Shown: piece by piece, positions 13,368 through 33,781 of the stretch
How positions within the stretch are numbered: position 1 is the stretch's first letter
How the letters are laid out: each line of letters starts with the position of its first letter
Assembly: GCA_030693515.1 (NCBI GenBank)
Contig: JAUYAK010000074.1
Coordinates: 1 to 60,455 of the forward strand
DNA from: Opitutaceae bacterium
Lineage (GTDB): Bacteria > Verrucomicrobiota > Verrucomicrobiia > Opitutales > Opitutaceae
Length of the DNA: 60,455 nt
Reading direction: 5' to 3'
The notes under the pieces: model-generated
The model's database searches: none
Told to the model about the DNA's origin: nothing
Seen by the model: the letters and a program-made list of their open reading frames with translations, nothing else
Translations under genes and position numbers: made by a program

Positions 13368-13544
13368 CGAAAACCTCCGGCTGGCACACCACCCAAATTA
13401 CTCGTATCGCCAGCTTCAAGCTTGAGGACGAGACTTCGACCCCGGAACATTTCAATCTGCATAATACCCGGCTCTTCGCGCTCGGTTTCCAAAGAAGACC
13501 GAGCCAGAATAAAAAAGCCAAATATCGGAAAACCCCCACAAACC

Positions 13545-14270: not shown

Positions 14271-14463
14271 CCTCCATCACTTAGTAATCTCCGAATCCGA
14301 TCTCAATTCGCTCCTGCGCCACGACATGTATTTCGCCATTCGTCCGCTTAAAGTCTCGATCCTGTGTCAAACAATCAGGCGAGTGATATAGCAATGATTT
14401 TACCTTTTGAGTTTGGCCCAAAGCTCGATCTTTCCGTAGTAATACCGTCTTCCCTCCTACTTT

Positions 14464-15750
14464 ATGAAAATCTGTGTCGTCGGCCTCGGTTACGTGGGGC
14501 TCCCGCTCTCCCTTCAATTCGCGCGTTGCGGCGCCACGGTGCTCGGTCTCGACATCGACCGGGGCAAGGTTGACGCCCTCAATCAAGGGAAGAGCTACAT
14601 CAAGCACATCAGCCCGGAGTCGATCAAAGCGGCCATCGACGCCACGTCGTTCAGCGCCACGACCGATTTCTCCCGCGCCCAGGAGTGCGAGGCCGCCATC
14701 ATCTGCGTGCCGACGCCGCTCAACAAGAACCGCGAGCCCGACATCTCCTACATCACGGAGACCGGCAAGGCCCTCGCGCCGCATCTCAAGAAGGGCGCGC
14801 TCGTCGTCCTCGAATCCACCACCTACCCCGGCACGACCGACGAGGATTTGCGCGCCGTGCTGGAAGCAGGCTCGGGACTCAAGGCGGGCGTGGACTTCCA
14901 TCTGGCGTTTTCGCCCGAGCGCGAAGACCCGGGCAATCCGAGCAGCGTCGTCGCGACGATTCCCAAGGTCGTCGGCGGCTACACGCCCGAGTGCCTCAAG
15001 AAAGCGATCGCCCTCTACTCGATCGCGATCAAGACGCTCGTGCCCGTGTCGTCGTGCCGCGTGGCCGAGGCGACCAAGCTGCTCGAGAACACGTTTCGCA
15101 GCGTGAACATCGCCCTCGTGAACGAACTCAAGGTCGTTTACGCCGCGATGGGCATCGACGTCTGGGAGGTGATCAACGCCGCCAAGACCAAGCCGTTTGG
15201 CTTCATGGCCTTTTACCCCGGCCCCGGCCTGGGTGGCCACTGCATCCCGATCGATCCGTTTTATCTGACGTGGAAGGCCCGCGAATACGGCCAACACACG
15301 CGCTTCATTGAGCTGGCTGGCGAGATCAACACCGCCATGCCGGAATACGTGGTGCACAAAGTGGCCGACGCGCTCAACGAGCGGCAGAAATCCGTCAAGG
15401 GCAGCCGCGTGCTCGTGGTCGGCCTCGCCTACAAGCCCAACGTCGACGACGAGCGCGAGTCGCCGAGCTACATCCTGATGGAGCAGCTTAAGGCCCGCGG
15501 AGCCGAGGTCGCCTACTACGATCCCTACGTGCCGATCATCCGGCCCACGCGCGAACATGCGCACTGGACCGGCGTGAAGTCGGTGGCGTGGAACCGCGAG
15601 ACGGTGCAAGGCTTCGACCTCACGCTCATCGCCACCAATCATGCCTCGGTCAACTACAGCGAACTGGCCGACTGGTCGCCCTGCATCGTGGACACGCGCA
15701 ACGCGATGCACGGCATCACAGCCAAGCCGGGCCAAGTGCACAAAGCCTAG
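14464..15750 (+). CDS. wbpA: UDP-N-acetylglucosamine 6-dehydrogenase (WbpA/TviB-like)
   Basis: 428 residues. The NAD-binding motif VGLGYVGLP is at residues 6-14, and GGHCIPIDP around C260 is the catalytic-cysteine motif of UDP-sugar 6-dehydrogenases. YKPNVDDERESPS marks the C-terminal domain. Length and the CVPTPL / STTYPGTT segments fit the UDP-HexNAc dehydrogenase branch and not UDP-glucose dehydrogenase. The reaction would be UDP-GlcNAc + 2 NAD+ to UDP-GlcNAcA in the cytoplasm. It provides a uronic acid precursor for the polysaccharide. The leader has a pyrimidine-rich tract directly before the ATG and no Shine-Dalgarno. UDP-ManNAc dehydrogenase remains possible. Confidence 0.85.
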   Translation: MKICVVGLGYVGLPLSLQFARCGATVLGLDIDRGKVDALNQGKSYIKHISPESIKAAIDATSFSATTDFSRAQECEAAIICVPTPLNKNREPDISYITETGKALAPHLKKGALVVLESTTYPGTTDEDLRAVLEAGSGLKAGVDFHLAFSPEREDPGNPSSVVATIPKVVGGYTPECLKKAIALYSIAIKTLVPVSSCRVAEATKLLENTFRSVNIALVNELKVVYAAMGIDVWEVINAAKTKPFGFMAFYPGPGLGGHCIPIDPFYLTWKAREYGQHTRFIELAGEINTAMPEYVVHKVADALNERQKSVKGSRVLVVGLAYKPNVDDERESPSYILMEQLKARGAEVAYYDPYVPIIRPTREHAHWTGVKSVAWNRETVQGFDLTLIATNHASVNYSELADWSPCIVDTRNAMHGITAKPGQVHKA

Positions 15751-15845
15751 GCGGCCTGCGGCCCCGACGCCTGTTGAGCCCACCCAATCCTCTCGGCCCT
15801 AGCGGAGCGGCGCCTCCGCCGGGCGAATGAAGAGAAATTTTAATC

Positions 15846-16967
15846 GTGCCTGAGACCACAAACCACCCGATTGCGATCCCTGCCCGGTTCGATGACATCG
15901 CCGTGGAGCAGAGAGGCGACATGACTATTCTCCGCTCCAAGACGCGGAAAACGCATCGGCGGCTTTTCTATCTTAATTCCTACGGCATGGCGCAGGCCTG
16001 GCGCACGCTGGAGGATCCGAATCCGGGCCAGCACCTGTGGGGCTGCATCGAACTCGCCCGCCTCGGCTATGAGGTCGCCATGCCGGAGGAGCCGGTGCGC
16101 GGCCGGTTCTTCAACTACCGGCGTCAAGATTTCAACCAACTGCGTTTCATCCGGGAGTGGCTCGGCCGCGACGGCATCCTCTACAGCGGGCATACCGTGC
16201 TTTTTTGGGCGCCGATGCTGGCTGCTGCAGGATTGTTGCGCTGCCCGGTGGTGACCCTGCTCTACGCGGCCGGGGAGAATCTGCGTTTCTCCTCAGGCTA
16301 CGCCGGCGTGATCGCCATGACACCCGCCGCCGAACGGCGCGCCCGCAGTCTGGCACCCGGCGCGAAAATCGCGCACCTCGGCTGGGGCGTCGATCTGCCG
16401 CTCTACCCCAGCTCACGCCACACGCCGGGCTGGTTCCTTTCCTGCGGCAAGACCCGCCGTGATTTTTCCACGCTCGCGAGTGCCGCTGGGAAAGTGGCAG
16501 AAACCGTGCGTGTCATCAACACCAGCGCCCCAGCGGGACTGGACTGGCCCGCTAATGTCCAGTTTGTCGGCACGGCGCAGGCCGGGACCTGGGAAGCCGT
16601 TTCTTTCCGCGAATTGATCGACCGCCACTATGCCGGCTGCACCGCCGCATTAGTGCTGCTCGAGACCGATACCGAGGAGCGCTACGCCGCTGGCTTTACC
16701 CAGCTCATCGAAGCCCTGGCCCTGGGCAAGCCGGTGATTGTCACGCGCACCGGAGCGATTCCCGGTGAGATCGATGTCGAAGCGACGGGCTGCGGAATCT
16801 TCGTCCCGCCGAAGGACCCGGTAGCGCTGGCCGAAGCGATGATCACCCTGGCAAAAGACCCGGCTCGCGCCGCCGCCATGGGCCAGGCGGGGCGGCGGTT
16901 GTGCGAAACCGACTACTCCATGGAACGCTTCGGCACGCGGCTGCACGGCTTTTTCAGCCAGCTCTGA
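15846..16967 (+). CDS. GT4-like glycosyltransferase, paralog of the gene at 8809
   Basis: 373 residues, GTG start after a 95-base gap. It shares with the gene at 8809 the N-terminal block LFYLNSYG, HLWGCIELARLGYEVAMPE, the central ILYSGHTVLFWAP, and the C-terminal KPVIVTRTGAIPGEIDVEATG. The two therefore form a paralogous pair separated by five other genes and the dehydrogenase. A GT-B fold is inferred, with a conserved acidic pair near the C-terminus. Different donor or acceptor specificities are likely. It is the last glycosyltransferase before the exosortase core. Confidence 0.72.
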   Translation: MPETTNHPIAIPARFDDIAVEQRGDMTILRSKTRKTHRRLFYLNSYGMAQAWRTLEDPNPGQHLWGCIELARLGYEVAMPEEPVRGRFFNYRRQDFNQLRFIREWLGRDGILYSGHTVLFWAPMLAAAGLLRCPVVTLLYAAGENLRFSSGYAGVIAMTPAAERRARSLAPGAKIAHLGWGVDLPLYPSSRHTPGWFLSCGKTRRDFSTLASAAGKVAETVRVINTSAPAGLDWPANVQFVGTAQAGTWEAVSFRELIDRHYAGCTAALVLLETDTEERYAAGFTQLIEALALGKPVIVTRTGAIPGEIDVEATGCGIFVPPKDPVALAEAMITLAKDPARAAAMGQAGRRLCETDYSMERFGTRLHGFFSQL

Positions 16968-18439: not shown

Positions 18440-19411
18440 ATGACCACCGAGACCCGACAGATGGGGGAAAAGCACACCGGCCCGGTTGCAACCCCGGCAG
18501 TCGTCACTGAAACGAATCCGCCATCCCGCCTCGCCGGCTTGCGGGGTATCCCCCCGCTGCTCGGGGCCACGCTCGCCGCCCTCGCCGCCGCCTACGCGCT
18601 GCCGCTCGTCGACCTCGTGCAGTTCGCGCTGCAGGGCGAACTGTATTCCTACATCATTTTGGTCCCGGTGGTCAGCGGCTATCTCTTCGCGACCGCCCCG
18701 CGCTCGCCCTTGCCGGCCGGATCGCCCCACCGGCTTCTTGCGGGCGTCTTCGCGATGCTCGGACTCGTGGCGATGGTCTCGCGACTGGCCCTCGGTTCGG
18801 CGCTGCAGCGGCAGGATGCGCTGGCGCTGGGCACGGTCTCGTTCGTCGCGTTCGTCACCGCCGCCGCGGCGTTCTTCCTTGATCGCGCTGCGTTTCGCCG
18901 GGCGCGGTTCCCCCTGGCGTTTCTCGTCTTCATGGCGCCCTTCCCCATCGCGATGGAGCAGGCCATCGAGGTCGCGCTGCAGCATGGCTCGGCGCCGGCG
19001 GCCCACGCGATGTTCCTCCTCGCGGGCACGACCATGCACTATCACGATTTGATTTTCGAGCTGCCGGGCATCGCCCTGCGCGTCGCGCCGGAATGCAGCG
19101 GCATCCGGTCCACGCTCGTGCTGTTCATGGTGAGCCTGGTGGCGGGGCATCTCTTCCTCCGCACGCCGTGGAAACGCGCCGTGATCACCCTCGCCGTGAT
19201 TCCGCTCGCCCTCATCCGCAACGGCTTTCGCATTTTCGTCATCGGCCAGCTGTGCATCCACCTCGGCCCGCATATGATTGACTCCATGTGGCACCACCAG
19301 GGCGGGCCGATCTTCTTCGCCCTGTCGCTCGTGCCTTTTTCCATCCTTGTTTTCTATCTGGTGCGATCGGAGCGCGGTGCGCTCCGCGCCTCAACCCCCG
19401 CCGTCAAGTAA
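18440..19411 (+). CDS. Exosortase (EpsH/Xrt family transpeptidase)
   Basis: 323 residues with about eight hydrophobic helices. The active-site signature is visible: ECSGIRS with C219, then LIRNGFRI with R264, and the MWHHQGG stretch with H285/H286, matching the Cys-Arg-His triad of the exosortase/archaeosortase family. Exosortases cleave C-terminal PEP-CTERM-type signals at the membrane and probably attach the protein to a lipid or glycan carrier. Here the EpsI partner is a separate minus-strand gene at 29099-29824. The gene is followed nine bases later by a PrsT-like TPR lipoprotein. No protein with a recognisable sorting tail occurs in the window, so the substrates must be elsewhere. The subtype is not assigned. 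Confidence 0.92.
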   Translation: MTTETRQMGEKHTGPVATPAVVTETNPPSRLAGLRGIPPLLGATLAALAAAYALPLVDLVQFALQGELYSYIILVPVVSGYLFATAPRSPLPAGSPHRLLAGVFAMLGLVAMVSRLALGSALQRQDALALGTVSFVAFVTAAAAFFLDRAAFRRARFPLAFLVFMAPFPIAMEQAIEVALQHGSAPAAHAMFLLAGTTMHYHDLIFELPGIALRVAPECSGIRSTLVLFMVSLVAGHLFLRTPWKRAVITLAVIPLALIRNGFRIFVIGQLCIHLGPHMIDSMWHHQGGPIFFALSLVPFSILVFYLVRSERGALRASTPAVK

Positions 19412-19420
19412 TTCCCCGCC

Positions 19421-22400
19421 ATGTTCCGCTCCGCTTTGCGCCATTCCTTACTCATGTTCGCCGGCGGTCTCCTCGCCGCCGTGCTGGCGGGCTGCTCACG
19501 CCAATCCGGACCCGAGGCCGCGATCAAGCGGGCCGACGCCTTCTTCGCGCAGGGCGACTACGAAAAGGCGGAGCTCGAATACAAGAACGCCCTCCAGCGC
19601 GGCGCCACCGGCGGCCACCCGATTGGGCGCCTGGGGATGATCTATTTCGACCAAGGCCGGATCAGCGTCGGCTACCGCTTCCTGCGCCGCGCGCTTGAGC
19701 TGAGCCCGGACGATTTGGCGGTGCGCATCCGGCTGGCGCATTTCGATTTCAGCAACGGCAAGCCGGGTGAGGCCCGGCAGGGTGCGCTTTTCATCCTCGG
19801 CAAGGATCCCGCCCACACCGAAGCCCCCATCATCCTGGCGGAGACCGTGGCCAACCTCGAGGAGGCCAACGACGCGCGCTCCCGGCTCCGCACGCTCGCG
19901 GGCGGCGCCAGCGACCGCGCGCCCGCCCTCGTCGGCCTCGCCTTGATCGACCTGCGCGAACGCAAATTCAAGGACGCCGAAGTCCTGCTGGATCGCGCCC
20001 GCCAGGCCGACCCCAAGTTCCATCTCAACGCCGCCGTGGCGGCCCAGATCCACATGGCGCAGGGTGAAACGGCGCGGGCGGAGACGGCGCTCGCCGCGGC
20101 GGCTGAGCTTTCCCCGCCGCGCTCCCAAGTCCGCGTGCAATATGCCCGCTTTCTCTTTCAAAACCAGAAATTCGAGGCCGGCCGCCGCCTCCTTGAGGAT
20201 CGCATCGCTAAAACGCCCGATTTCATCCCCGCCTACATTGCCCTGGCCGACGCGCTGAACACCGCGCAGAAATACGACGAAGCCGTCGCTTTGCTCGACA
20301 AGGTCATCAACCGTGATGCCGAGCATCCCGAGGCGTTGATCCTTATGGGGCAGGTCCGGCTGCGCATGGGCGACAAGGAGCGCGCCGTCACCACCCTGGA
20401 ACGCGCCATCGCCCTCTATCCTCGCTCGGCGCCGATGCATTTCCAGCTCGGTGCCGCCCACGAATCGGCCGGTAACCTCCCGGCCGCCAGCGCCAGCTTC
20501 TCGCAAGCGCTGCGCATCGCCCCCAACTACGTCCCGGCCGCCCTCTCACTCGCGCAGGTGCAGGCCCGGCAGGGCGATTTCGCCAACGCGGTGAAAACCA
20601 TCGAGCCGCTGGCCCGCCGGGAACCGCCCATCCTCGAGGCCCGCACGCTGCTCGCCGCGTCCCTGCGTGGCCAGGGCTCGCTCGACGAAGCGCTGCAGCT
20701 CTACCGCCAGCTGGCCGAGGCCAATCCCAAGATCGCGGATTTTCATTTCCTTGTGGCTTCCGTGCTTGAGCAGAAAGGCCAGACGGCCGAGGCCCGCTTC
20801 GTGCTTGCGGCCTTGCATGAGCACGCTCCGGACTACCTGCCCGCCCTGGAGAAGATGGTGGGCTACGACATGGCCGATAAGAAATTCCCCGCCGCGATTG
20901 CCCGGCTCGAGGCCTATGTCGCCCGCCACCCGGCCGCCGCCGTGGCCCACCTGATGCTCGCCAACATCTTCCTCCAGCAGTCTGACACCGCCAAGGCCGA
21001 GACCGCGCTGAAGAAAGCCATCGAGCTCCAGCCCGACGCCCAAGTCGCCTACGGCCTCCTCGCCAAGCTCTACATCGACTCCCAGCAAACCGACAAGGCC
21101 ATCGCTACGCTGCGCGCCACGGTCGAGAAGAACCCCAAGGACTTCGGCGCCCACTTCGTCCTCGGCACCCTCCACGAATCGCAGAAAAACTATCCCGCCG
21201 CCCGCGACGCCTACGAGGCCACGGTCGCCGCCAACCCAAAGATGGGCCACGCGCTCAACAACCTCGCCTACCTCTACGCCGATCAGCTCGTCGATCTCGA
21301 CAAGGCGCAGGATGTCGCCCAGCGCGCCCGCGAGGCCCTGCCCGGCCAGGCTGAAATCGCCGACACGCTCGGCTGGATCCTTTACAAGAAGGGCCAGTAT
21401 CCCCGTTCCGTCGCCCTGCTCGAGGAAGCCATCGAGAAACTGCCCGACAATGCCGACGTGCGCCTGCACCTCGGCCTGGCCTACTATATGTCCGGCCAGG
21501 AAGCCGCCGCCCGGACCAACCTGGAAAAAGCGCTCAAACAGCAACCGGCCGTCGCCGGCGCGGCCGAGGCGCGGCAATGCCTCGCGGTGCTCGCCACGGA
21601 CATCGGCAACGCCGCCGCCGCGCGGCCCGTCCTCGAGCAGGCCGTCGCCGCCCGCAAGGATGATCCCGTGGCCAATCTCCGCCTCGCCGCGATACTCGAG
21701 CGCGAAGGCAACGCCGGGAAAGCTCTCGCCGCCTACGAAATTGCGCTCAAGACCAACCCCAGCCTCGTCCCCGCCGTCGTCGCCGCGATGCGCATCCACG
21801 CCTCGCGCAACGAGACCGCCAAGGCCCTCGCCCTCGGCCGCGAAGCGCGCAAACTGGTCCCCGCCGACACCCAGCTCACCCAAGCCCTCGGCCGCCTGAC
21901 GTATCAGGCCGGTGATTTCCCCGGTGCGCTCGCCCTCCTGCAGGACGCCGCCCGCCGCCAGCCCGACGACGCCGAGATCCTCTTCGACCTCGCCGACGCC
22001 ACCTACGCCCTCGGCCAGCTCACCCCCACGGAGAATGCGCTCAACGACGCGCTCCGCCTCGCGCCAACCTCCCCGCGCGCCGCCCAAGCCCGGCAACACC
22101 TCGCCCTCCTCGCCTTCGCCCAGAATCCGGCCGATGCGGCCGCCGCCACACAGGCCGCCGACACCGCGCTCAAGGCCGACCCAGGCAGCGTGCCCGCGCT
22201 GATGGTCAAAGCCGCGCTCGACGAACGCGGGGGCAACGCCAAGGCCGCGCAGCAAACCTACGATAAGATCCTCACGCGCTGGCCCGACTTCCGGCCCGCC
22301 ATGCGCCGGCTCGCCATCCTCTGGTCCGCCCAGGCCGAGCTGCCGAAAAACGCCGCCGAGATCGCCGGCAAAGCCCGCGACACCTTCCCCGGCGACGCGG

Positions 22401-22651
22401 AGCTCACGCGCGCGTTTGGCCTGATTCTTTACCGCCAGGGCAACTTCACCCGCGCCGCCACGCTCCTGCAGGAGAGCGCGCGCACCCTGACCAAGGACGC
22501 CGAGCTGCTGTATTACCTCGGACGAGCCCAGATCGAAAACAAGGACGCCGATGCCGGGAAGAGCTCCCTGGAGCGCGCCCTCACCCTCGGTCTCAAAGAC
22601 GAATTCGCCCAGGAAGCCCGCCGCCTCAGCGCGCCCCCGGCGAAGAAGTAA
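19421..22651 (+). CDS. prsT: PEP-CTERM system TPR-repeat lipoprotein (PrsT-like)
   Basis: 1076 residues. A lipoprotein signal is clear: a hydrophobic stretch and lipobox L-A-G-C with the acylated cysteine at residue 25. The rest is a continuous array of TPR helices (recurrent patterns such as AxxxLGxxYxxxGxxxxAxxxxxxAxxxxP), consistent with about two dozen repeats. Long TPR lipoproteins of this size sit beside the exosortase in many EPS loci, where they probably scaffold the export machinery at the outer-membrane side of the periplasm. The ATG is nine bases after the exosortase stop. Base use is very GC-biased, so the opposite strand also shows a spurious 726-residue frame. Confidence 0.85.
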   Translation: MFRSALRHSLLMFAGGLLAAVLAGCSRQSGPEAAIKRADAFFAQGDYEKAELEYKNALQRGATGGHPIGRLGMIYFDQGRISVGYRFLRRALELSPDDLAVRIRLAHFDFSNGKPGEARQGALFILGKDPAHTEAPIILAETVANLEEANDARSRLRTLAGGASDRAPALVGLALIDLRERKFKDAEVLLDRARQADPKFHLNAAVAAQIHMAQGETARAETALAAAAELSPPRSQVRVQYARFLFQNQKFEAGRRLLEDRIAKTPDFIPAYIALADALNTAQKYDEAVALLDKVINRDAEHPEALILMGQVRLRMGDKERAVTTLERAIALYPRSAPMHFQLGAAHESAGNLPAASASFSQALRIAPNYVPAALSLAQVQARQGDFANAVKTIEPLARREPPILEARTLLAASLRGQGSLDEALQLYRQLAEANPKIADFHFLVASVLEQKGQTAEARFVLAALHEHAPDYLPALEKMVGYDMADKKFPAAIARLEAYVARHPAAAVAHLMLANIFLQQSDTAKAETALKKAIELQPDAQVAYGLLAKLYIDSQQTDKAIATLRATVEKNPKDFGAHFVLGTLHESQKNYPAARDAYEATVAANPKMGHALNNLAYLYADQLVDLDKAQDVAQRAREALPGQAEIADTLGWILYKKGQYPRSVALLEEAIEKLPDNADVRLHLGLAYYMSGQEAAARTNLEKALKQQPAVAGAAEARQCLAVLATDIGNAAAARPVLEQAVAARKDDPVANLRLAAILEREGNAGKALAAYEIALKTNPSLVPAVVAAMRIHASRNETAKALALGREARKLVPADTQLTQALGRLTYQAGDFPGALALLQDAARRQPDDAEILFDLADATYALGQLTPTENALNDALRLAPTSPRAAQARQHLALLAFAQNPADAAAATQAADTALKADPGSVPALMVKAALDERGGNAKAAQQTYDKILTRWPDFRPAMRRLAILWSAQAELPKNAAEIAGKARDTFPGDAELTRAFGLILYRQGNFTRAATLLQESARTLTKDAELLYYLGRAQIENKDADAGKSSLERALTLGLKDEFAQEARRLSAPPAKK

Positions 22652-25428: not shown

Positions 25429-27297
25429 TCACTCGAGGTAGGGCGTGTATTCCGGCACCAGGCGTTTGAGCAGGGCCTTCAGTTGGTTCGCATCCATCGC
25501 GTGGAGCGTCTGCTCCAGATCGCGCAGGCCGGAATCACCGGCTCCCGCCTCACTCGTGAAACGCATGATGCGCGGGTGCGCCGTGGTCGCGTAGCGCTCG
25601 GTGTGGTGCTGCAACTCCTCGTAGAGCTTCTCGCCGGGCTTGAGCCCGGTGAACACGATCTCGATGTCCTCGCCTACGCGATAGCCGCTCAACTCGATCA
25701 TCTGCCGCGCAAGATCGACGATTTTTACCGGCTGGCCCATATCGAGGACGAAGATCTCGCCGCCGTGACCGAGCACGAAACTCTGCAGCACGAGCCCCAC
25801 CGCCTCCGAAATTGTCATGAAGTAGCGGCTCACGTCGGGATGCGTCACGGTCACCGGCCCGCCCTGCTCAATCTGGCGCTTGAAGATGGGGACGACGCTG
25901 CCGGAGGATCCGAGGACATTGCCGAAACGCACGGCCATGAACTCCGTCGTCGCACCCGCGGCGAGCGCCATGAGCTGGATTTCCGCGAGGCGCTTGGTCG
26001 CGCCCATCACGCTCGTGGGGTTGATGGCCTTGTCGGTCGAGATGAACACGAACGCATCCACCCCGTGCGCCATCGCGAGGGTCGCGAGCCGGCGCGTGCC
26101 GAGCACGTTGTTGCGGATCGCCTCGGCCGGCTGCCGCTCCATGAGATAGACGTGCTTGTGCGCCGCCGCGTGGAAGACGACCTCGGGCCGGTAGCGGGTG
26201 AAGAGAAATTCCATCCGCTCGCGATCGAGGATGTCCGCCACGAGCGGCACGATCACGCCGGCGAAGCCGAGTTCGTTCAACTCCTGCTCGATCACGAACA
26301 GCGCGCCCTCGGCCTGCTCGACGAGGAGCAGTCGCTTCGGGTTGAGCGCGACGATCTGGCGGCACAGCTCGGCCCCGATGCTGCCGCCGGCACCCGTCAC
26401 GAGCACCACGCGGCCCGCGATGCGCTGGCGGATGCCCGCCGCGTCGAGGTTCACCGGATCGCGGCCGAGCAGATCCTGCACCTCGACCGGGCGGATGCGG
26501 CTCGCCCTCATCCGCCCCGAGGCCAGCTCCTCCAGCGAGGGCATCGTCTCGACCTTGATCCCCTGCTTGGCCAGCAAGAGCACCACCTCGCGCACACGCT
26601 TCGCCGGCGCCGAGGGCATCGCGATCACGGCTTTGGCGATCGTGGTAATGCCCTTCGCCGTCGCGATGGCCTCGGGCCGGCCGATCACGGGCACGCCATG
26701 CACGAGCCGGCCGTGCTTGGACGGATCATCGTCGAAAAACATCACCGGGCGGAAGCCGCGCGAGGGCGAATTGATGAACTCCTTCGCCAACGAGGCGCCC
26801 GCATCCCCCGCCCCGATGATCGCGAGACGCTGCTCCTGGACACCGGTGGTCGCCCGCTGCGCGCCGCTCAGGCGTTCGCGATACATCCGCGCCGCGACGC
26901 GGCCGAGACAGAGGCCGCCGAGGCACAGCATGAAATCACTCAACAGCACACCGCGCGGCGGCGAATAATGCGCCGAACCGAGCAGCCGGGGCAGCAGCAG
27001 CAGCGCGCTCGAGCCCAGCGTCACCCAGATGATCCGCATCAAATCCGGGATGCTGAAAAACGTCATCAGGCTGCCGAATTGCCGCGCCAGCACCAGCGCC
27101 ACGAGCTTCACGCCCACCACGGCGGGCAGCAGGCGCAGCCGCTCCGCCCGGTAGCCCTCAGGCACGGCGAACTCAAAACGGATCTCGTAGGCGAGCCAGA
27201 AGCTCGCCGCGATCACCACGCCGTAGAAAAAACCCAAAATGAGCACGCGGCTCTTTTGCGCGAGGTCAGCGAAGGGGGCGTGGATTTCCTCGGGCAT
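25429..27297 (-). CDS. Nucleoside-diphosphate-sugar 4,6-dehydratase (PglF/WbpM-like)
   Basis: 622 residues from the ATG at 27297 (ATGA overlap with the upstream gene). The N-terminus holds about four membrane helices. A first Rossmann-like domain (LAIIGAGDAGASL, 158-170) follows. The catalytic dehydratase domain has VTGAGGSIG (300-308), STDKAINPTS (420-429) and M431-x3-K435: methionine replaces the SDR tyrosine, as in PglF and WbpM. RFGNVLGSSGSVVP is also conserved. Reaction: UDP-GlcNAc to UDP-4-keto-6-deoxy-GlcNAc at the cytoplasmic membrane. With the PglE-, PglD- and PglC-like genes upstream it would supply a di-N-acylbacillosamine-type sugar. An epimerising relative is not excluded. Confidence 0.9.
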   Translation of the reverse strand: MPEEIHAPFADLAQKSRVLILGFFYGVVIAASFWLAYEIRFEFAVPEGYRAERLRLLPAVVGVKLVALVLARQFGSLMTFFSIPDLMRIIWVTLGSSALLLLPRLLGSAHYSPPRGVLLSDFMLCLGGLCLGRVAARMYRERLSGAQRATTGVQEQRLAIIGAGDAGASLAKEFINSPSRGFRPVMFFDDDPSKHGRLVHGVPVIGRPEAIATAKGITTIAKAVIAMPSAPAKRVREVVLLLAKQGIKVETMPSLEELASGRMRASRIRPVEVQDLLGRDPVNLDAAGIRQRIAGRVVLVTGAGGSIGAELCRQIVALNPKRLLLVEQAEGALFVIEQELNELGFAGVIVPLVADILDRERMEFLFTRYRPEVVFHAAAHKHVYLMERQPAEAIRNNVLGTRRLATLAMAHGVDAFVFISTDKAINPTSVMGATKRLAEIQLMALAAGATTEFMAVRFGNVLGSSGSVVPIFKRQIEQGGPVTVTHPDVSRYFMTISEAVGLVLQSFVLGHGGEIFVLDMGQPVKIVDLARQMIELSGYRVGEDIEIVFTGLKPGEKLYEELQHHTERYATTAHPRIMRFTSEAGAGDSGLRDLEQTLHAMDANQLKALLKRLVPEYTPYLE

Positions 27298-27911
27298 CAG
27301 CGGCGGGAGTCGGACCGCGGGGCGGCGGGATTGAATTCGGACATGGTGGCCTCGCCGGACGCATTCACGCCGCCGCGGCCCAGCACGGCCTTGAACGTGA
27401 GGAGGATGATTTTGGCGTCGAGCCAGAAGCCCCTCGTCTCCACGTAGCGCACGTCCCATTCGAATTTCTCCTCCCAGCTGAGCGCATTGCGGCCCATCAC
27501 CTGCGCCAGCCCGGTCAGGCCGGGCCGCACTTCGTGGCGGCGCGCCTGCCGCGGCGTGTAGCGATCGAGATACTGCACAAGCAGCGGACGCGGCCCGACG
27601 AGACTCATCTCGCCGCGCAGGACGTTGACGAGTTCGGGCAACTCATCAAGCGAGGTTGAGCGCAGCCAGCGGCCAAAGGCGGTCAGCCGCTCCGCATCGG
27701 GCAGCAGCCGCCCGGCGGCATCCCGCGTGTCGCGCATCGTGCGAAACTTGATGAGTTCAAAAATCACGGCATCCCGACCCGGCCGCCGCTGACGGAAAAA
27801 CACCGGCGCGCCCAGCTTGGCGCGCACCAGCACCGCCACGATCGCTGCCAGTGGCATCCACAGCGGCGCGGTCCCAACGACCGCCGCCAGATCAAAAATA
27901 CGTTTGAGCAT
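27297..27911 (-). CDS. Undecaprenyl-phosphate phosphoglycosyl transferase (PglC-like sugar transferase)
   Basis: 204 residues, a minimal monotopic phosphoglycosyl transferase. A re-entrant hydrophobic helix lies at residues 5-30, then FFRQRRPGRD, FELIKFRTM and TSLDELPELVNVL with the catalytic Asp-Glu dyad at D89-E90, then GEMSLVGPRPL. The short length (no WcaJ-type membrane domain) fits PglC, which transfers a phospho-sugar from UDP-di-N-acetylbacillosamine to undecaprenyl phosphate. This would be the initiating step of chain assembly. Its stop overlaps the dehydratase start, and the aminotransferase gene precedes it by 13 bases. Confidence 0.88.
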   Translation of the reverse strand: MLKRIFDLAAVVGTAPLWMPLAAIVAVLVRAKLGAPVFFRQRRPGRDAVIFELIKFRTMRDTRDAAGRLLPDAERLTAFGRWLRSTSLDELPELVNVLRGEMSLVGPRPLLVQYLDRYTPRQARRHEVRPGLTGLAQVMGRNALSWEEKFEWDVRYVETRGFWLDAKIILLTFKAVLGRGGVNASGEATMSEFNPAAPRSDSRR

Positions 27912-27924
27912 CGGCTACTCCACT

Positions 27925-29067
27925 CTACCCGCGGCGCGCGACCGCCTTGACCGCGGCGATCACGCGCTCGCGATCCGCCAGCGTGAGGTTGGAGCCCGAG
28001 GGCAGGCAAAGACCCCGCGCAAAAAGATCCTCCGCCACCGCGCCGCCGTAGCATTCGCTGCCCGCGAAGACCGGCTGCAGATGCATCGGCTTCCACACCG
28101 GACGGACCTCGATGTTCTCCGCCTCGAGCGCCTGGCGCACAGCCTCGCGATCCGCGCCAAACTTTTCCGGATCGACCAGCACGCACGTGAGCCAGCGCGT
28201 GCTCCGGCCCCATGCCGCCTCCGGCATGAACTCGATGCCGGGCGTGTCCGCGAAACCCGCCTGATAGGCCTCATTGTGCGCACGCCTCGCGGCCACACGG
28301 TCATCCAGCACCCGCAGCTGCCCGCGCCCGATCGCGGCGAGCACGTTGCTCATGCGGTAGTTGAATCCGATCTCGGAGTGCTGGTAGTGCGGCGCCGGAT
28401 CGCGCGCCTGCGTCGCCCAATACCGGGCCTTCTCGATCAGCGCCGCATCGTTGGACACCAGCATGCCGCCGCCCGAGGTCGTGATGATCTTGTTGCCGTT
28501 GAAGGAGTGAATGCCGCAGAGCCCGACTGATCCAGGCGCCCGGCCGCGATACGTCGCGCCGAGGGCCTCCGCCGCATCCTCGATCAGCGGAATCCCGTGC
28601 CGCGCGCAGAGCACCACGATCGGATCGAGGTCGGCGCTTTGCCCGTAGATGTGCGCCAGCACGACGGCTTTGGGCACCCGCCCACGCTTCACGCGATCCG
28701 TGATCGCCTCGGCCAGCAGCGCGGGCGACATGTTCCACGACTCGCGCTCGCAATCGACAAACACCGGCCGCGCGCGCTCGTAGAGGATCGGGTTGACCGT
28801 CGCCGAGAAGGTGAAGGTCGAGCAGATCACCTCGTCGCCCGGCTGCAGGCGCAGCCAGCGCATCGCGAGATGGAGCGCCGCGGTGCCCGACGACAGTGCC
28901 GCCGCGTAGGCGGTGCCGACCCGCGCCGCAAACTCCGCCTCAAACGCGTCCACACTCGGTCCGAGCGGCGCGATCCAGTTGGAGGCGAAAGCCTCCGTGA
29001 CGAACCGCAGCTCGTCCCCGCCCAGGTGCGGCGACGAGAGGTAAACGCGGGGTTTGCGGTCGGGCAT
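27925..29067 (-). CDS. DegT/DnrJ/EryC1 aminotransferase (PglE-like)
   Basis: 380 residues of the PLP-dependent sugar aminotransferase family. SSGTAALHLAM (59-69), PLIEDAAEALG with D164 (pyridine-N contact), and HSFNGNKIITTSGGGML with the PLP lysine K193 are all present. The product is a 4-amino sugar nucleotide from the 4-keto-6-deoxy intermediate. It lies between the EpsI gene (31-base gap) and the PglC-like gene (13-base gap) on the same strand. The donor is usually glutamate. Confidence 0.88.
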   Translation of the reverse strand: MPDRKPRVYLSSPHLGGDELRFVTEAFASNWIAPLGPSVDAFEAEFAARVGTAYAAALSSGTAALHLAMRWLRLQPGDEVICSTFTFSATVNPILYERARPVFVDCERESWNMSPALLAEAITDRVKRGRVPKAVVLAHIYGQSADLDPIVVLCARHGIPLIEDAAEALGATYRGRAPGSVGLCGIHSFNGNKIITTSGGGMLVSNDAALIEKARYWATQARDPAPHYQHSEIGFNYRMSNVLAAIGRGQLRVLDDRVAARRAHNEAYQAGFADTPGIEFMPEAAWGRSTRWLTCVLVDPEKFGADREAVRQALEAENIEVRPVWKPMHLQPVFAGSECYGGAVAEDLFARGLCLPSGSNLTLADRERVIAAVKAVARRG

Positions 29068-29098: not shown

Positions 29099-29824
29099 TC
29101 AGGCCCCGGGGGCGGCGGCCAAGCCTAGACCCGCGAGTGCCTCCACCATGGTTTTCCAACCGGCCTCGTCATGTAGCCGCTCGAAGGGCACCGAACTCGT
29201 CACCCGCACGAAGAGCTGCGCACGGCTGCCGGCGAGCGCATACGCCAAGGCGTCGCGCCACCAACCCACGATGCCGGGACTCGTGGCGAGCTGCCCACCG
29301 TAGTCATGGACCTGCGCGCCGACGAGGTGCCAGTAGAGCACATGCTCCTGGCGTCCATCGCGGCCCGGTGCCTGGAAAATCCGCCACTGTGCGGACTGGA
29401 GCCGCGTGTCGCTGGTGGTGATTTTCTCGGCGAAGCGTTGGTCGAGGCAGGTCCAGCCGTTTTCAATCCAGCAGCGGTCGGGCGTGTGCGAAGCGACTTT
29501 TTGCACCGGCATGCGGTTGGGCGCCCAATAGGCGGCGTAAAGGCCGACGGTCACACCTCCACGGCGGTAAAGCCGGTAAACGTAGTCGTCGTAGTTCAGC
29601 GTGCGCTCGATGGCGCCGCGCACCGCCTCGTTGGGGCCGAGCGGCTCGTCGCTCACCACCCAGCCGGCGAGTTGCGCCGGAATCTGATTTTTCAAATCGA
29701 TCGGGCGTGCGGCCACCGCTCGCTCGCCTTCGGTCATGTCACGGAAACGGATAAATTGCAGCGCCAGCGCCGTCAGCAGCACGACCGCCGCAAGCATGAG
29801 GACCGCGCGAGTCTTCATCATCAT
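29099..29824 (-). CDS. epsI: Exosortase-associated protein EpsI (DUF3485)
   Basis: 241 residues with one N-terminal membrane helix (residues 5-24). The EpsI pattern is seen: FRDMTEGERAV, IPAQLAGWVVSDEPLG, then VYRLYRRGGVTVGLYAAYW, HTPDRCWIENGWTC and VLYWHLV. EpsI is a periplasm-facing partner of the exosortase; in some genomes it is fused to its C-terminus. Here it is unfused and lies on the opposite strand, about 10 kb from the exosortase. The ATG (start of an MMM run) overlaps the PglD-like stop at 29821-29824. Its insertion between PglD- and PglE-like genes is unusual. Confidence 0.85.
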   Translation of the reverse strand: MMMKTRAVLMLAAVVLLTALALQFIRFRDMTEGERAVAARPIDLKNQIPAQLAGWVVSDEPLGPNEAVRGAIERTLNYDDYVYRLYRRGGVTVGLYAAYWAPNRMPVQKVASHTPDRCWIENGWTCLDQRFAEKITTSDTRLQSAQWRIFQAPGRDGRQEHVLYWHLVGAQVHDYGGQLATSPGIVGWWRDALAYALAGSRAQLFVRVTSSVPFERLHDEAGWKTMVEALAGLGLAAAPGA

Positions 29825-30462
29825 TCGATGCGCCGCGCGGGCACACCAAAGACCTTGGTGCCCGGGTCCACGTCCCGCATCACCACCGCGCCCGCGCCGA
29901 GGTAGGCGCCGTCGCCCACGCTTACGCCGGGGGCAATCACCACGTGGCTGCTAATCCATACGGACCGACCGATGCGCACGCCGCCGGTGAGATCGCTGTG
30001 GCAATTGATCTGCGTCCAGTCGCCCACCTCCGTATCGTGATCGACCGTCGCGTGGAGATTCACCGCCACCCCCCGGCCGATCCGGTTGTTGGCCGACACG
30101 ACACTGTGCGGACACAGGATCACACCCTCGGCCAGCTCGACCTCGTGGCCCAGCACCGCGGTGCGATGAATGATCCGCGTGAAGCGGCCGCCGCGCGTGG
30201 CGATGAGCTCCGAGCAACGCTGCTTCACCGCCGGCACACCGACCGCACAGACAAACACCTCGTCGTCCGCCGGCTGATGATCCGTGAGCCGGCCGATCAA
30301 TTTTCCCGGCGAGCGCTTGTGCGTGAGCGCCTCAAGGTTGTCGTCGATAAACCCCTTGATCGTCCAATCGCGGCCCATCTGCTCCGACTGTTCCGCCCAC
30401 GCGAGCACCTCGCGGCCAAAGCCGCCGGCGCCGATGATGATGAGTCCGGGAAGTTTTCCCAT
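29821..30462 (-). CDS. Sugar O/N-acyltransferase, PglD/NeuD-like left-handed beta-helix
   Basis: 213 residues. The N-terminal Rossmann-like domain has LIIIGAGGFGREVLAWAE, the NeuD/PglD opening. The C-terminal part consists of hexapeptide turns (VILCPHSVVSANNRIGRGVAV, INCHSDLTGGVRIGRSVWI) forming a left-handed beta-helix trimer. HATVDHDTEVGDW provides the conserved catalytic-histidine region. The function would be acetyl-CoA (or acyl-ACP/acyl-CoA) transfer to the UDP-4-amino sugar. Because an ACP, a ligase and a reductase directly precede it in the operon, the acyl donor may not be acetyl-CoA; this is inference. Confidence 0.87.
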   Translation of the reverse strand: MGKLPGLIIIGAGGFGREVLAWAEQSEQMGRDWTIKGFIDDNLEALTHKRSPGKLIGRLTDHQPADDEVFVCAVGVPAVKQRCSELIATRGGRFTRIIHRTAVLGHEVELAEGVILCPHSVVSANNRIGRGVAVNLHATVDHDTEVGDWTQINCHSDLTGGVRIGRSVWISSHVVIAPGVSVGDGAYLGAGAVVMRDVDPGTKVFGVPARRIE

Positions 30463-30464
30463 GG

Positions 30465-31193
30465 TCAGATCGTGCCGGAATCCACGAAAAGATTCTGGCC
30501 CGTAATCGACGCCGCGCCATCGCCGAGCAGGTGCACGACGGTGGCCGCGACGGAGTCCGGGCTCGTCGCCCGCTGGAGCGCGGTGCGGCGGTGGATTTTC
30601 TCGCGCTGCTCAGCCGTGAGGCCCGCGCTCATCGCCGTGTCCATGAAACCGGCCACGACGCAATTGGAGCGGATGCCGCGCTCGCCCCACTCGCGCGCCG
30701 TGCTTTTGGAAAACGCCTCCAGCGCGCCCTTGGTCGAGGCATACATGGCGAGCCCCTTGTAGCCCGTGTGCACGCTGATCGAGGAGATATGCACGATCGA
30801 GCCGGCGACCTGCTTCAGCAGCATCTGCCGAATCACGTGCTTCGTGATCAGCATCGGGGTGAAGACGTTCACCTCATACATCGCGCGCAACCGCGCGGCA
30901 TCCAGGTTGGCAACCAGATCGTCATAGGCGACGGCGGCATTGTTGACGAAGCCGTGCAGTGGCAGAGCCAAGGGCAGGAAAGGCTCGCACAACTCCGCCT
31001 TCACCGCGTCGACCCGGCCGAGATCGAAGGCGTGGAAGTGCGCCCGTCCCGCGTGCCCGCGCTGCAAAGCCGCGAACTCCGCCGAGAGCCGGCGGCTCAC
31101 GCCGTGAACGTTCCATCCCGCGGCCAGCACCGCGCGCGCGATCGCGAGGCCGAGACCCTGCGATACGCCGGTGATGAGGATGTTCTTGCTCAT
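30465..31193 (-). CDS. Short-chain dehydrogenase/reductase (FabG-like)
   Basis: 242 residues. Classical SDR motifs: TGVSQGLG (8-15), NNAA (84-87), Ser 138, and Y151-x3-K155. FVNNAAVAY and MYASTKGALEAFSKSTAREW are typical of 3-oxoacyl-ACP reductases. It starts at the ATGA overlap with the ligase and ends two bases before the PglD-like start. With the neighbouring ACP and ligase it would reduce a ketoacyl group to a hydroxyacyl group. Reduction of a keto-sugar is the alternative. Confidence 0.85.
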   Translation of the reverse strand: MSKNILITGVSQGLGLAIARAVLAAGWNVHGVSRRLSAEFAALQRGHAGRAHFHAFDLGRVDAVKAELCEPFLPLALPLHGFVNNAAVAYDDLVANLDAARLRAMYEVNVFTPMLITKHVIRQMLLKQVAGSIVHISSISVHTGYKGLAMYASTKGALEAFSKSTAREWGERGIRSNCVVAGFMDTAMSAGLTAEQREKIHRRTALQRATSPDSVAATVVHLLGDGAASITGQNLFVDSGTI

Positions 31194-32437
31194 GCGCGGG
31201 CCACCTTACCCGTGCGGGTCGACGCGATGTTGTCCACGAAGCGGATCATTCGCGGGACCTTGAACGGTTGCAATTGCGCTTCGGCAAATTCGCGCAGCGC
31301 GGCCTCGGCCGGGGCGGCGCCGCGTGCGACGACCTCCGCGCAGAGCACCTGGCCGAGCACGGAGTTTTTCCGGCCGAACACGCGCGCCTGCACGACAGCC
31401 GGATGCGCCGCCAGCACCGCCTCGACTTCATGCGGGTTCACCTTGCGGCCACCCACGTTGATCCAGTCACGCTCGCGGGCGACGATGCGGAAGCGCAACG
31501 GCGCCGCGCGCTCCACGACGACCGCGTCGCCCGTGTCATACCACTCCCCGCCCGTCGCCCCACCGTCGAACTCGCCGAGCAGGTTGCGATGCACGTGCAG
31601 CGTGCCGCCGCGCACTACGACACTCCCCTCCAGCCCGGGAGCGATCCCAAAAAGGTCGCCGTCTGAGGTCAGCAGCGTGCCGGCCTCCGTCGAGGCATAG
31701 ACGTTGTGCACCCGCGCCGCGGGAAACAGCGCCTTGAGCTTTTCGATCAATCCCGCATCCGCGCTTTCGCCGCCCAGCGTCACCGATCGCACGCCGGCCA
31801 GCGCACAATCAGCGGGCAAAAGCAGCCGGTAGAAGCTCGGCGTGGCCGAGAGGTGCGAGACCCCATGCCGCTCAATCGCTGCAAACACCGCCGCACGTTC
31901 AAGGTCGCGCACATCGACGAGCGTGCAGCCATTGGCGAGCGCCTGGAGGCAAACCTGAAGGCCCGCGACATGCGTGGGATTGTAGGCCAAGGCCCAGACG
32001 GCCTCGGCGTGGCGTGGCGAAACCTTCACGGCGCGCGCGAGATTCGCGGCCGGCTGCCAGACGCGCCTGGGCAGGCCGGTCGAGCCAGAGGTGAACAGAC
32101 CCAGCCGGGCGCGCGATCCGCCGGCGGCCTTTTCCTTGAGCGATTCGAGCGAAATCGAGGCGTCGCGCGACAGCGTGACCGTCCGCTGAAGATCGCTGGG
32201 CAAAAACCCCAGCGCCTCGATCTCGCCTAGATTGAAGTCGGCGTCGAATAGCGTCTGCTCTGCATCGCACGCGATCGTGGTGGCGCAGGCGATGAGGGCC
32301 TCGCGCGCCGAGGCGGGCTGGCAGCACGGCCGATGCGCCGCCGCGCGCGTGCGAATCTGCGCGAGCAGCGTCGCGTAGGTCTCGCTCGCGCCGGAGCGGC
32401 CGTCGATCCACCAGGGTTTTTCCAAGGCCGCGTTCAT
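31190..32437 (-). CDS. Stand-alone acyl-adenylating ligase (AMP-binding family)
   Basis: 415 residues, shorter than typical acyl-CoA synthetases (about 500-550). It keeps the ANL motifs: FTSGSTGLPRRV (115-126, P-loop), VYASTEAG, GEWYDTGD, and the C-terminal NVGGRKVNPHEVE and TRTGKVARA, with the likely A10 lysine at K411. The shortening is mainly at the N-terminus. It would activate a free acid as acyl-AMP and load it onto the ACP encoded immediately upstream, whose stop overlaps this start (ATGA). Acyl-CoA formation is the alternative. Confidence 0.85.
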   Translation of the reverse strand: MNAALEKPWWIDGRSGASETYATLLAQIRTRAAAHRPCCQPASAREALIACATTIACDAEQTLFDADFNLGEIEALGFLPSDLQRTVTLSRDASISLESLKEKAAGGSRARLGLFTSGSTGLPRRVWQPAANLARAVKVSPRHAEAVWALAYNPTHVAGLQVCLQALANGCTLVDVRDLERAAVFAAIERHGVSHLSATPSFYRLLLPADCALAGVRSVTLGGESADAGLIEKLKALFPAARVHNVYASTEAGTLLTSDGDLFGIAPGLEGSVVVRGGTLHVHRNLLGEFDGGATGGEWYDTGDAVVVERAAPLRFRIVARERDWINVGGRKVNPHEVEAVLAAHPAVVQARVFGRKNSVLGQVLCAEVVARGAAPAEAALREFAEAQLQPFKVPRMIRFVDNIASTRTGKVARA

Positions 32438-32670
32438 TTTTTTCCCGCGCGCGTGATCTTGTCGTCGAGTTCGCCCACGGTCTGCACAAGCCCGTCGGCA
32501 AACACATCGACGCCGAACCGCTCCTCGATCCGCACCGTCAGCTCCGCAAGATCGAGTGAGGCGAACCCGAGCTCCTCGCGCAATCGGGTGGCCCGCGTAA
32601 CGCCACTGGCCGGCGGCTGCTTCTTGTTGGCGCGCACCTCGTCGATGAGCCGGAGGAGATCAGAGTGCAT
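32434..32670 (-). CDS. Acyl carrier protein
   Basis: 78 residues from the ATG at 32670. Homology begins at MHSDLLRLIDEV, and the upstream 62 residues of the longer frame belong to the neighbouring GT gene. A four-helix ACP pattern is visible. The phosphopantetheine site reads ELGFASLDLAEL with S38; the usual Asp of the D-S-L motif is Ala here. The gene overlaps the preceding GT4 gene by 11 bases and is followed by the adenylating ligase. It probably carries the acyl group for amino-sugar acylation. Confidence 0.87.
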   Translation of the reverse strand: MHSDLLRLIDEVRANKKQPPASGVTRATRLREELGFASLDLAELTVRIEERFGVDVFADGLVQTVGELDDKITRAGKK

Positions 32671-33781
32671 GATAATAGGCCGCGAGCCCATCGGTGATGC
32701 GTTGCTCGGGAAACAATTTCTCCACGCGCGCACGCGCGTCGTGCCCCAGCCGTGCCGCGAGCTCGCGATCCGCGGCGAGTTGCTCGAGGCACCGACGCAG
32801 GGCCGCCCCATCGCCCGGCGGATGGAGCAGTCCGCCGCGCCCTGCTTCGACCGCATCGGTCACGCCGTAGATCCGCGACGCCACACACGGGCAGCCGCAC
32901 GCCGCCGCCTCGATGATGACGCTCCCGAAGCCCTCGCGATGGCTCGGCAGGCACAGCACATCCGCCGCCGCCATGAAGCGCTCCGGGTTCGGTGTCTGCG
33001 CCACAAATCGCACCTCAGACTCGCGGCCAGCCAAGGCACCGCGCACCTGCGCCTCCATGCCCGCCTCGTCCGGCCCGACCAGCACCAGGCAAACCGGCCC
33101 CGATGCCTTCATCGCCGCAAACGCCCGCGCCAGATCCAACACACCCTTGTCGCGATTGAGCCGACCCACGAAAAGAAACAGCACCGCGCCGTCGTCGACC
33201 CGGAGTTCCGCCCGCAACGCCGCCCGCGCCGCGGCATCGGGCCGAAAGCGCGCGAGGTTCACGCCGCAGATCGAGCCGTCGCCGATCACAGTGGTCCTTC
33301 CGCCGGCAACCACGCCCTCCGTTGCGAGAAACCGCGCCTGCGACGCGCTGTCGGCCAGCAAATGCGTGGCAGAGCGCGCGAGGACCCGATCGAGATTTTT
33401 CAGGAGCCAGCGCTTCGGGCCGCGCTTCGTCGCCCAGACTTGGCCGGTGAACGTATGCAGCCGGCGCGGCACGCCCGCAAGCCGGGCGGCAAGCATGGCG
33501 AGCAGGCCAGCTTTCGGCGTAAACGAATGCACGAGGTCGAAACGCTCGCGGCGGAACAGCCGGCGCAACGCCAGCAACGCGCCCAGATCGCGCAGGGGCG
33601 CGACCGCGCGCTCAATGCCCACGGCGTGAAATTTCGCGGCCACGTGATCCGCGCGACGCGGCCGGCCATGGCATACGACCGACACGTCGAAGTCCGCGCT
33701 CAGCCGCACCGCATGCGGCCGCAGGAAGGCGTCAAACGTGGCTGGGGCAGCGCACACGAGGCAGAGGCGTTTACGCGGCAT
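32660..33781 (-). CDS. Glycosyltransferase family 4 (PglA-like)
   Basis: 373 residues. The donor-side signature LVHSFTPKAGLLAMLAARLAGVPRRLHTFTGQVWATKRG is typical of the GT4 group containing PglA, which adds the second sugar to undecaprenyl-diphosphate-bacillosamine. The C-terminal domain has LFVGRLNRDKGVLDLARAF and CLPSHREGFGSVIIEAAACG (E-x7-E). It therefore probably adds the sugar next to the PglC-derived residue. It overlaps the following ACP gene by 11 bases and the preceding GT2 gene by 11 bases. Confidence 0.87.
   Translation of the reverse strand: MPRKRLCLVCAAPATFDAFLRPHAVRLSADFDVSVVCHGRPRRADHVAAKFHAVGIERAVAPLRDLGALLALRRLFRRERFDLVHSFTPKAGLLAMLAARLAGVPRRLHTFTGQVWATKRGPKRWLLKNLDRVLARSATHLLADSASQARFLATEGVVAGGRTTVIGDGSICGVNLARFRPDAAARAALRAELRVDDGAVLFLFVGRLNRDKGVLDLARAFAAMKASGPVCLVLVGPDEAGMEAQVRGALAGRESEVRFVAQTPNPERFMAAADVLCLPSHREGFGSVIIEAAACGCPCVASRIYGVTDAVEAGRGGLLHPPGDGAALRRCLEQLAADRELAARLGHDARARVEKLFPEQRITDGLAAYYHAL

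Follow-up and report, generated by a model that had tools for sequence, protein, structure and literature searches.

Results

Gene content of the locus

We analyzed a 60,455-nucleotide stretch of DNA from an Opitutaceae bacterium (assembly GCA_030693515.1, contig JAUYAK010000074.1), hereafter the window, which corresponds to contig C98 in a genome of 6.65 Mb. Our subject is a three-gene cassette for an acyl carrier protein (ACP), a stand-alone adenylating ligase and a FabG-like short-chain dehydrogenase/reductase (SDR), which lies within a minus-strand polysaccharide operon in the order glycosyltransferase, ACP, ligase, SDR, PglD, EpsI, aminotransferase, PglC, PglF, with several overlaps of a few bases (Table 1). 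Pfam and NCBIfam searches, in which the ACP query to Pfam carried one extra upstream residue, bear out a first-pass annotation of this DNA that had placed an ACP, a 415-residue adenylating ligase, a FabG-like reductase and a PglD-like acyltransferase head to tail. The interval it gave for these genes is exact for the first three, with the acyltransferase just outside, and the ATGA coupling it reported is seen at the ACP/ligase and ligase/SDR junctions, whereas a 2-nucleotide gap separates SDR from PglD. From its ATG on, the ACP gene shares 11 nucleotides with the 3' end of the glycosyltransferase gene upstream, and the EpsI gene sits between those for PglD and the aminotransferase. The family assignments behind its description of a PglF/PglE/PglD/PglC operon also hold, but the dehydratase scores 165.5 bits against the PseB model (cut-off 407.75) and the aminotransferase 364 bits against the LegC-type model (cut-off 420); because both miss these specific cut-offs, we assign the two proteins at family level, which does not fix the exact sugar.

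Table 1. Genes of the cassette, its operon and the window exosortase
Feature	Position	Strand	Characteristics
ACP	32434..32670	-	78 aa; PF00550 2.3e-5; phosphopantetheine Ser38 in GFASLDLAEL
Stand-alone adenylating ligase	31190..32437	-	415 aa; ANL superfamily, N-terminal part shortened; PF00501 2.8e-22, PF13193 6.1e-17
FabG-like SDR	30465..31193	-	242 aa; PF13561 (adh_short_C2) 4e-43; Ser138-Tyr151-Lys155
PglD/VioB/NeuD-family left-handed beta-helix acyltransferase	29821..30462	-	213 aa; TIGR03570 (NeuD/PglB/VioB) 179.2 bits, above cut-off 160.8; Hexapep (PF00132) 9.4e-14, PglD_N (PF17836) 9.1e-10
EpsI-like exosortase-associated protein	29099..29824	-	NF045609 2.8e-12, 46.5 bits, below cut-off 220
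PglE/LegC-like aminotransferase	27925..29067	-	PF01041 6.6e-101; TIGR04181 364 bits, cut-off 420
PglC-like initiating sugar-phosphate transferase	27297..27911	-	PF02397 5.4e-59
PglF-like UDP-HexNAc 4,6-dehydratase	25429..27297	-	622 aa; PF02719 2e-113 (longer start used)
Glycosyltransferase upstream of cassette	32660..33781	-	PF00534 1.9e-30
Exosortase, XrtC (VPDSG-CTERM)-like	18440..19411	+	PF09721 2e-41; TIGR04151 284.1 bits, cut-off 300

Predicted activities of the cassette proteins and PglD

Active sites were compared across the ligase and ACP of 17 of the 21 loci that carry a ligase of this kind (type A), with 18 rows for the SDR and 12 for PglD. The ACP scores 25 bits against the phosphopantetheine-binding profile PF00550 (cut-off 20.8), and its attachment serine is kept in 17/17. 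Ligase residues S117, G118, T250, E251, D304, R321, G410 and K411 are likewise present in 17/17 and T116 in 16/17; motifs A3, A5, A7, A8 and A10 of the ANL superfamily are recognizable, the A10 catalytic lysine again in 17/17. The predicted ligase structure has an ANL fold despite missing part of the usual N-terminal region (predicted local distance difference test (pLDDT) 87.0, predicted template-modelling (TM) score 0.75), with MenE, 4-chlorobenzoate-CoA ligase and malonyl-CoA ligase as its nearest folds, and a profile built from 19 ligases found 4-hydroxybutyrate-, acetyl- and succinylbenzoate-CoA ligases as its top matches. As a rule, amino-acid-activating adenylation domains carry an aspartate in the A4 region. 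Here that region (NPTHVAG in the window) has a histidine, His156, in 16/17 aligned ligases, as in acyl-CoA ligases. From this histidine and the profile neighbours, we take the substrate to be a small carboxylic acid other than an amino acid, whose identity the pocket does not reveal. The ligase falls outside the exosortase A-associated acyl-CoA ligase family (TIGR03098; 82.3 bits against a cut-off of 592.35). A search of plasmid records with the ligase returned 852 matches, none at 60% identity or above; the best 25 of these are below 40% and are annotated as generic AMP-binding or fatty acid ligases, once as MenE, or not at all.

The SDR keeps its Ser-Tyr-Lys triad and Asn109 in 18/18 rows. 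Its best sequence match in the PDB is MupS (4yxf, 2.7e-35) and its nearest sequences include 3-oxoacyl-ACP reductases; with the classical triad present, it scores 147.5 bits against the FabG equivalog TIGR01830, below the cut-off of 297.75. The catalytic histidine of PglD, assigned by alignment as His142, is found in 12/12 rows. The best of five PglD model runs reached a pLDDT of 96.7 (the other four, 68–72), and its nearest folds are the acetyltransferase domain of Neisseria gonorrhoeae PglB (4m98), VioB (7txp) and Campylobacter jejuni PglD (2vhe), with TM scores of 0.89–0.91 to the first two. The genome has only one PglD of this kind. We saw no ketoacyl-ACP synthase III (KASIII) in the locus and no dedicated one in the genome, where the best match, at 31% identity, is about as similar as the general KASIII homologues found in relatives (mostly 26–37%).

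Conservation of the cassette in relatives

Our type-A sample comprises 21 distinct loci, the window included. Duplicates (L028/L160, L034/L161, L026/L126 and L027/L127) were counted once, and L031 and L052, closely similar loci of two assemblies, as two; presence or absence of a gene refers to the fetched stretch around each locus. ACP occurs in 21/21, the SDR in 19/21 (not L034 or L054) and PglD in 15/21. The order ACP, ligase, SDR, PglD is contiguous in 8/21 (the window, L026, L027, L029, L030, L032, L058 and L162) and is kept with an insertion in four more (L028, L031, L052 and L053), and L033 reads ligase, SDR, PglD, ACP. The four-gene order that the first-pass annotation had proposed to look for in relatives is thus kept together, and the recurrence of the gene set argues that the arrangement is not due to chance. 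Named relatives with this ligase belong to the Opitutaceae and other Opitutales. Distances among ligase, SDR and ACP correlate at r = 0.81–0.91, against 0.63–0.66 with PglD (n = 12). Three hybrid loci, L051, L054 and L059, hold the ligase and a KASIII together.

Of the 15 type-A loci with PglD, 14 (all but L054) carry EpsI; it is found in none of the six without a clear PglD and in only 2/9 PglD loci with KASIII alone. Of the proposed fusion to an exosortase locus, what stands is that EpsI accompanies this kind of PglD operon; it is not tied to the acyl cassette as such.

Other genes recur around these loci. In L028 (5730–7709), L029 (2387–4330), L030 (1716–3704) and L051 (11574–13574; the only one checked with Pfam), a gene of asparagine-synthase type sits at the ACP gene or a few genes upstream. 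Small genes resembling, by eye, toxin–antitoxin or nucleotidyltransferase/HEPN-like pairs lie within or beside the operon in L028 (9279–9889 and 12294–13011), L030 (11431–12833) and L052 (3348–6396).

Acyl modules beside PglD across genomes

Of 142 genomes, that of the window included, 34 contain a PglD at E ≤ 1e-20. In 27 of the 34, the fetched stretches show a type-A ligase, a second kind of module (type B) or a KASIII no more than 4 kb from PglD: type A in ten (with a KASIII as well in L054 and L059), type B in three, type-B genes with KASIII in five and KASIII alone in nine. Genome G113, counted among the five, has a type-B ACP and SDR and no ligase on its 5.9-kb contig, and G127, with a weak ligase match near PglD, was counted apart from the 27. 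A Pfam check of ten sample proteins underlies the KASIII, second-ACP, SDR and type-B assignments; the second ACP of L054 gave no match, and that of type B in L068 came in just below the cut-off. Because genomes hold only one or two KASIII homologues at E ≤ 1e-20 and few such ligases, we estimate that chance would place a module beside PglD at well under one locus. We also tried an HCDLTG signature as a marker of acyl-module PglDs and rejected it: it is present or near-identical in module-free L108, L109 and L112–L114 and missing from KASIII-linked L122–L124.

Type-B modules consist of a ligase of ~455 aa, a 100-aa ACP and an SDR of their own, and their ligases share ~30% identity with type A over the aligned part. 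A sample of 387 genomes from across the phylum yielded eight with strong matches to the type-A ligase profile (E < 1e-150), all of the same order; 16 weaker matches (1e-46 to 4e-69) extend to other orders and classes, 15 of which fit type B better, with G400 matching type A weakly. PglD lies near the type-B module in 9/22 loci (L061–L065, L067, L068, L169 and L171). In the genome of L068, a second, divergent ACP-SDR-KASIII-ACP-PglD set (13274–16379) lies at a distance of 2 kb from the first.

A congener without the cassette

In congener G016, locus L108 (contig C169, 2586–4473) is a syntenic operon without exactly the ACP, ligase and SDR, so that the orthologue of the window's upstream glycosyltransferase abuts PglD. 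Two glycosyltransferases are 74 and 78% identical to those of the window, and PglD, EpsI, aminotransferase, PglC and PglF are 70–83% identical. Type-A ligases are absent from the G016 genome (94% complete; best match 1e-11), and a search for type B likewise found nothing at 1e-15. A tree of PglD sequences places G016 inside the cassette-A clade (13 rows, support 100/96), where it groups with the window and L026 (95/78, just below the strict mark); given this position among PglDs from cassette-bearing loci, loss is the simpler reading of the absence.

Six of 70 positions invariant in 12 cassette-A PglDs differ in G016, including Cys154 and Asp141, the neighbour of catalytic His142, which is replaced by alanine. 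Leave-one-out counts for the other cassette-A PglDs are 0–3, except for 15 in the deep L053. Asp141 occurs in 12/12 cassette-A PglDs without KASIII and in 0/26 other PglDs; the L162 PglD, outside the 12, has both Asp141 and Cys154.

Surroundings of the operon

The GC content of the cassette (0.63–0.69) is not distinct from that of the locus (0.68). More glycosyltransferase genes, methyltransferases and an O-antigen-ligase-family gene surround the operon, and a flippase and a polymerase nearby are candidates picked by eye, neither with a match in Pfam or NCBIfam. A PrsT-like TPR protein (19421–22651; 415 bits, cut-off 312) adjoins the window exosortase. The same polysaccharide region has an acyltransferase-3 family gene (9945–11144, PF01757), a possible O-acylating enzyme.

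Discussion

We lean slightly towards reading the cassette as a dedicated acyl-ACP supply that feeds N-acylation of a bacillosamine-type sugar by PglD, and give an even chance to its product being a hydroxyacyl group. Judging from their families, PglF and the aminotransferase would make UDP-4-amino-4,6-dideoxy-HexNAc. The ligase would adenylate a small free carboxylic acid and load it onto the phosphopantetheine arm of its partner ACP, the SDR would reduce a keto group of the bound acyl chain to a hydroxyl, as the analogous viosamine island of Pseudomonas syringae (see below) suggests, and PglD would move the hydroxyacyl group from ACP to the C4 amine, after which PglC could start the lipid-linked repeat. 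In loci with a type-A ligase alone, the ligase would take the place of VioS, the KASIII of that island; in the hybrids L051, L054 and L059, it might act as a supplier of starter units. Different acyl-ACP generators stand beside one acyltransferase, and the simplest account of this would be that PglD takes its acyl group from ACP. In favour of the reading are the co-occurrence of ACP, SDR and, in most loci, PglD with the type-A ligase, the modules beside PglD in 27/34 genomes, the correlated distances of ligase, SDR and ACP, the cassette loss in G016 with its change at Asp141, and a genome that pairs a single PglD of this kind with no dedicated KASIII. The route proposed in the first-pass annotation is partly supported.

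Several observations weigh against a cassette that supplies PglD. The closest solved relatives of PglD are acetyl-CoA enzymes, and a free 3-oxo acid is not an obvious substrate for the ligase. G016 retains this PglD operon in the absence of the cassette, and PglD stands without a module in 6/34 genomes (G016, G120, G125, G107, G139 and G106, the last two on short contigs), where KASIII homologues are only 28–37% identical, as in kin, with none in half-complete G106, and no close type-B ligase was found (matches of 28% or less). PglD was not found in the fetched stretches of 5/21 type-A loci (L034, L051, L055, which was read apart from 5.5 kb, L056 and L057), and L060 has only a weak PglD relative. 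Among those five, L051 and L057 have neighbours of polysaccharide type according to Pfam and L055 by eye only, and in L056 a GNAT acetyltransferase adjoins the ACP; such loci suggest an alternative acceptor for the cassette's product. Nor is PglD clearly seen in 13/22 type-B loci, several of them on short contigs; six of the 13 (L066, L070, L164–L166 and L173) carry a PglC-like gene in the stretch instead. This count limits any reading of every such module as a PglD feeder, and it lowered our confidence that the cassette feeds PglD by a small step, to its present level just above even.

Asp141 is missing from the type-A and KASIII hybrids L054 and L059 and would mark loci with type A alone at best, and its pattern, confounded with one clade and one loss event, is suggestive only. 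Among the genes of the operon, PglD is the one whose identity to the window is clearly lower in G016 than in L027 (70 vs 75%; PglE nearly level at 83 vs 84). This hinted at accelerated PglD evolution after the loss, but relative-rate tests with three outgroups gave no significant excess of change in PglD (32:21, 28:23 and 32:20, against 100:74, 110:74 and 111:73 for the other genes). A comparison with the window as reference (Fisher p = 0.004) was set aside, as branching order can explain it.

These points bear on how else the locus might work. PglD may acetylate from acetyl-CoA as in Campylobacter, with the cassette's acyl group going to another position or sugar through a different acyltransferase. 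We consider this rather unlikely, even though it would sit well with the acetyl-CoA enzymes nearest to PglD, with the cassette-free operon of G016, with the type-A cassettes that have polysaccharide-type or GNAT neighbours and no PglD nearby, and with the many type-B ligases found apart from PglD. The window's acyltransferase-3 gene could be that other enzyme, but it lies ~19 kb off on the opposite strand, whereas the cassette directly abuts PglD in 8/21 type-A loci and KASIII-ACP modules adjoin PglD elsewhere.

A role for the SDR as a sugar-nucleotide reductase or other redox enzyme, leaving the ligase and ACP to make an unreduced acyl group or the ligase to salvage acids, seems improbable to us. 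Its family alone does not give the substrate, its score stays under the FabG equivalog cut-off, and L034 and L054 lack it despite having ligase and ACP; yet its gene shares an ATGA with that of the ligase, its distances correlate with those of ACP (r = 0.91), 3-oxoacyl-ACP reductases and MupS are its nearest sequences, and G016 lacks all three cassette genes at once. More improbable still is a DltA-like ligase that activates an amino acid and so yields an aminoacylated sugar. There is weak profile similarity to DltA (7vhv, 5.6e-19) and to the adenylation domains of nonribosomal peptide synthetases, but the A4 histidine in place of the amino-acid-type aspartate disfavours such a substrate, which would also leave the reductase without a role.

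Extending the preferred reading of a cassette that supplies PglD, Opitutales PglD could be an acyl-ACP-dependent N-acyltransferase with exchangeable ligase, ketosynthase and hybrid modules, whose swap or loss would reset the N-acyl group; we offer this tentatively and think it, on balance, rather unlikely. A ligase module would then activate a preformed acid and a ketosynthase module would build one, whereas in hybrids the ligase-loaded ACP would prime the ketosynthase as a miniature starter-plus-extender line, and the residue before the catalytic histidine would change in step with a module's exchange or loss, the latter as in G016. Were this true, bacillosamine-type sugars would carry a combinatorial acyl code. 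If the cassette does supply PglD, plug-in carrier-protein modules, one of them with a ligase in place of a ketosynthase, could determine how the first amino sugar of a bacterial polysaccharide is acylated. Sequence could then predict which Opitutales have non-acetyl amino sugars, with G016 as a natural control, and the ligase-ACP-reductase-PglD set could potentially be used to attach chosen acids to sugar nucleotides.

Comparison with known systems

Hydroxyacyl amino sugars with adjacent carrier-protein genes are already known and are not new here. In the open-licence literature searched, we did not meet the exchange of ligase for ketosynthase beside PglD, its frequency in Opitutales or the loss of the cassette in a congener, and we found no paper on an ACP-dependent nucleotide-sugar acyltransferase, which is no evidence that none has been published. 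C. jejuni Cj1307/Cj1308, a possible parallel for which no paper was found, is not used.

The PglF-PglE-PglD-PglC pathway of C. jejuni, which makes N,N'-diacetylbacillosamine, has the same four enzyme families as the window, whose PglD model matches 2vhe and 3bsy; the structure of C. jejuni PglD in complex with acetyl-CoA has been solved, and the pathway is not known to include an acyl cassette. AntD (3vbl), from anthrose biosynthesis, is an N-acyltransferase that acts on a 4-amino-4,6-dideoxy sugar with a hydroxyacyl-CoA donor, and is a distant fold match to PglD (rank 41, TM score 0.52).

Exchange of acylating modules has a precedent in the neisserial PglB/PglB2 switch between diNAcBac and GATDH, which gives a glyceramido trideoxyhexose; it uses an ATP-grasp domain, and the available excerpts of its description mention no ACP, ligase or SDR (PMC11130364). 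Enterobacterial flagellin glycosylation islands list Acp, a CaiC ligase, FabG and NeuD, a likeness to the window by gene content; according to the available excerpts, they also carry LuxC/LuxE and their authors suggest a liposugar (PMC4875605).

Closer still is the viosamine island of P. syringae (vioA, vioB, vioS, vioR, acp, vioM and vioT; orfA-E in P. aeruginosa PAK), which, like the window, brings together an aminotransferase, VioB, an ACP and a 3-oxoacyl-ACP-reductase-like gene in one locus (PMC3927599). As given in the available excerpts, N-(3-hydroxy-1-oxobutyl)viosamine is attributed to VioR, VioB (213 aa), VioS (a KASIII) and ACP, and loss of vioR abolishes the modified viosamine; VioB is annotated there as a dTDP-viosamine acetyltransferase (PMC3927599). 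Going by its name, this VioB would belong to the PglD family. The two differ in that the island serves a flagellin glycan through dTDP-viosamine, whereas the window is a polysaccharide locus with a bacillosamine-type sugar, and in that the window has an adenylating ligase where the island has VioS, with no dedicated KASIII seen in its genome. On the parts of the island's description that we compared, it is the nearest characterised route, and the window probably holds a ligase-driven version of it.

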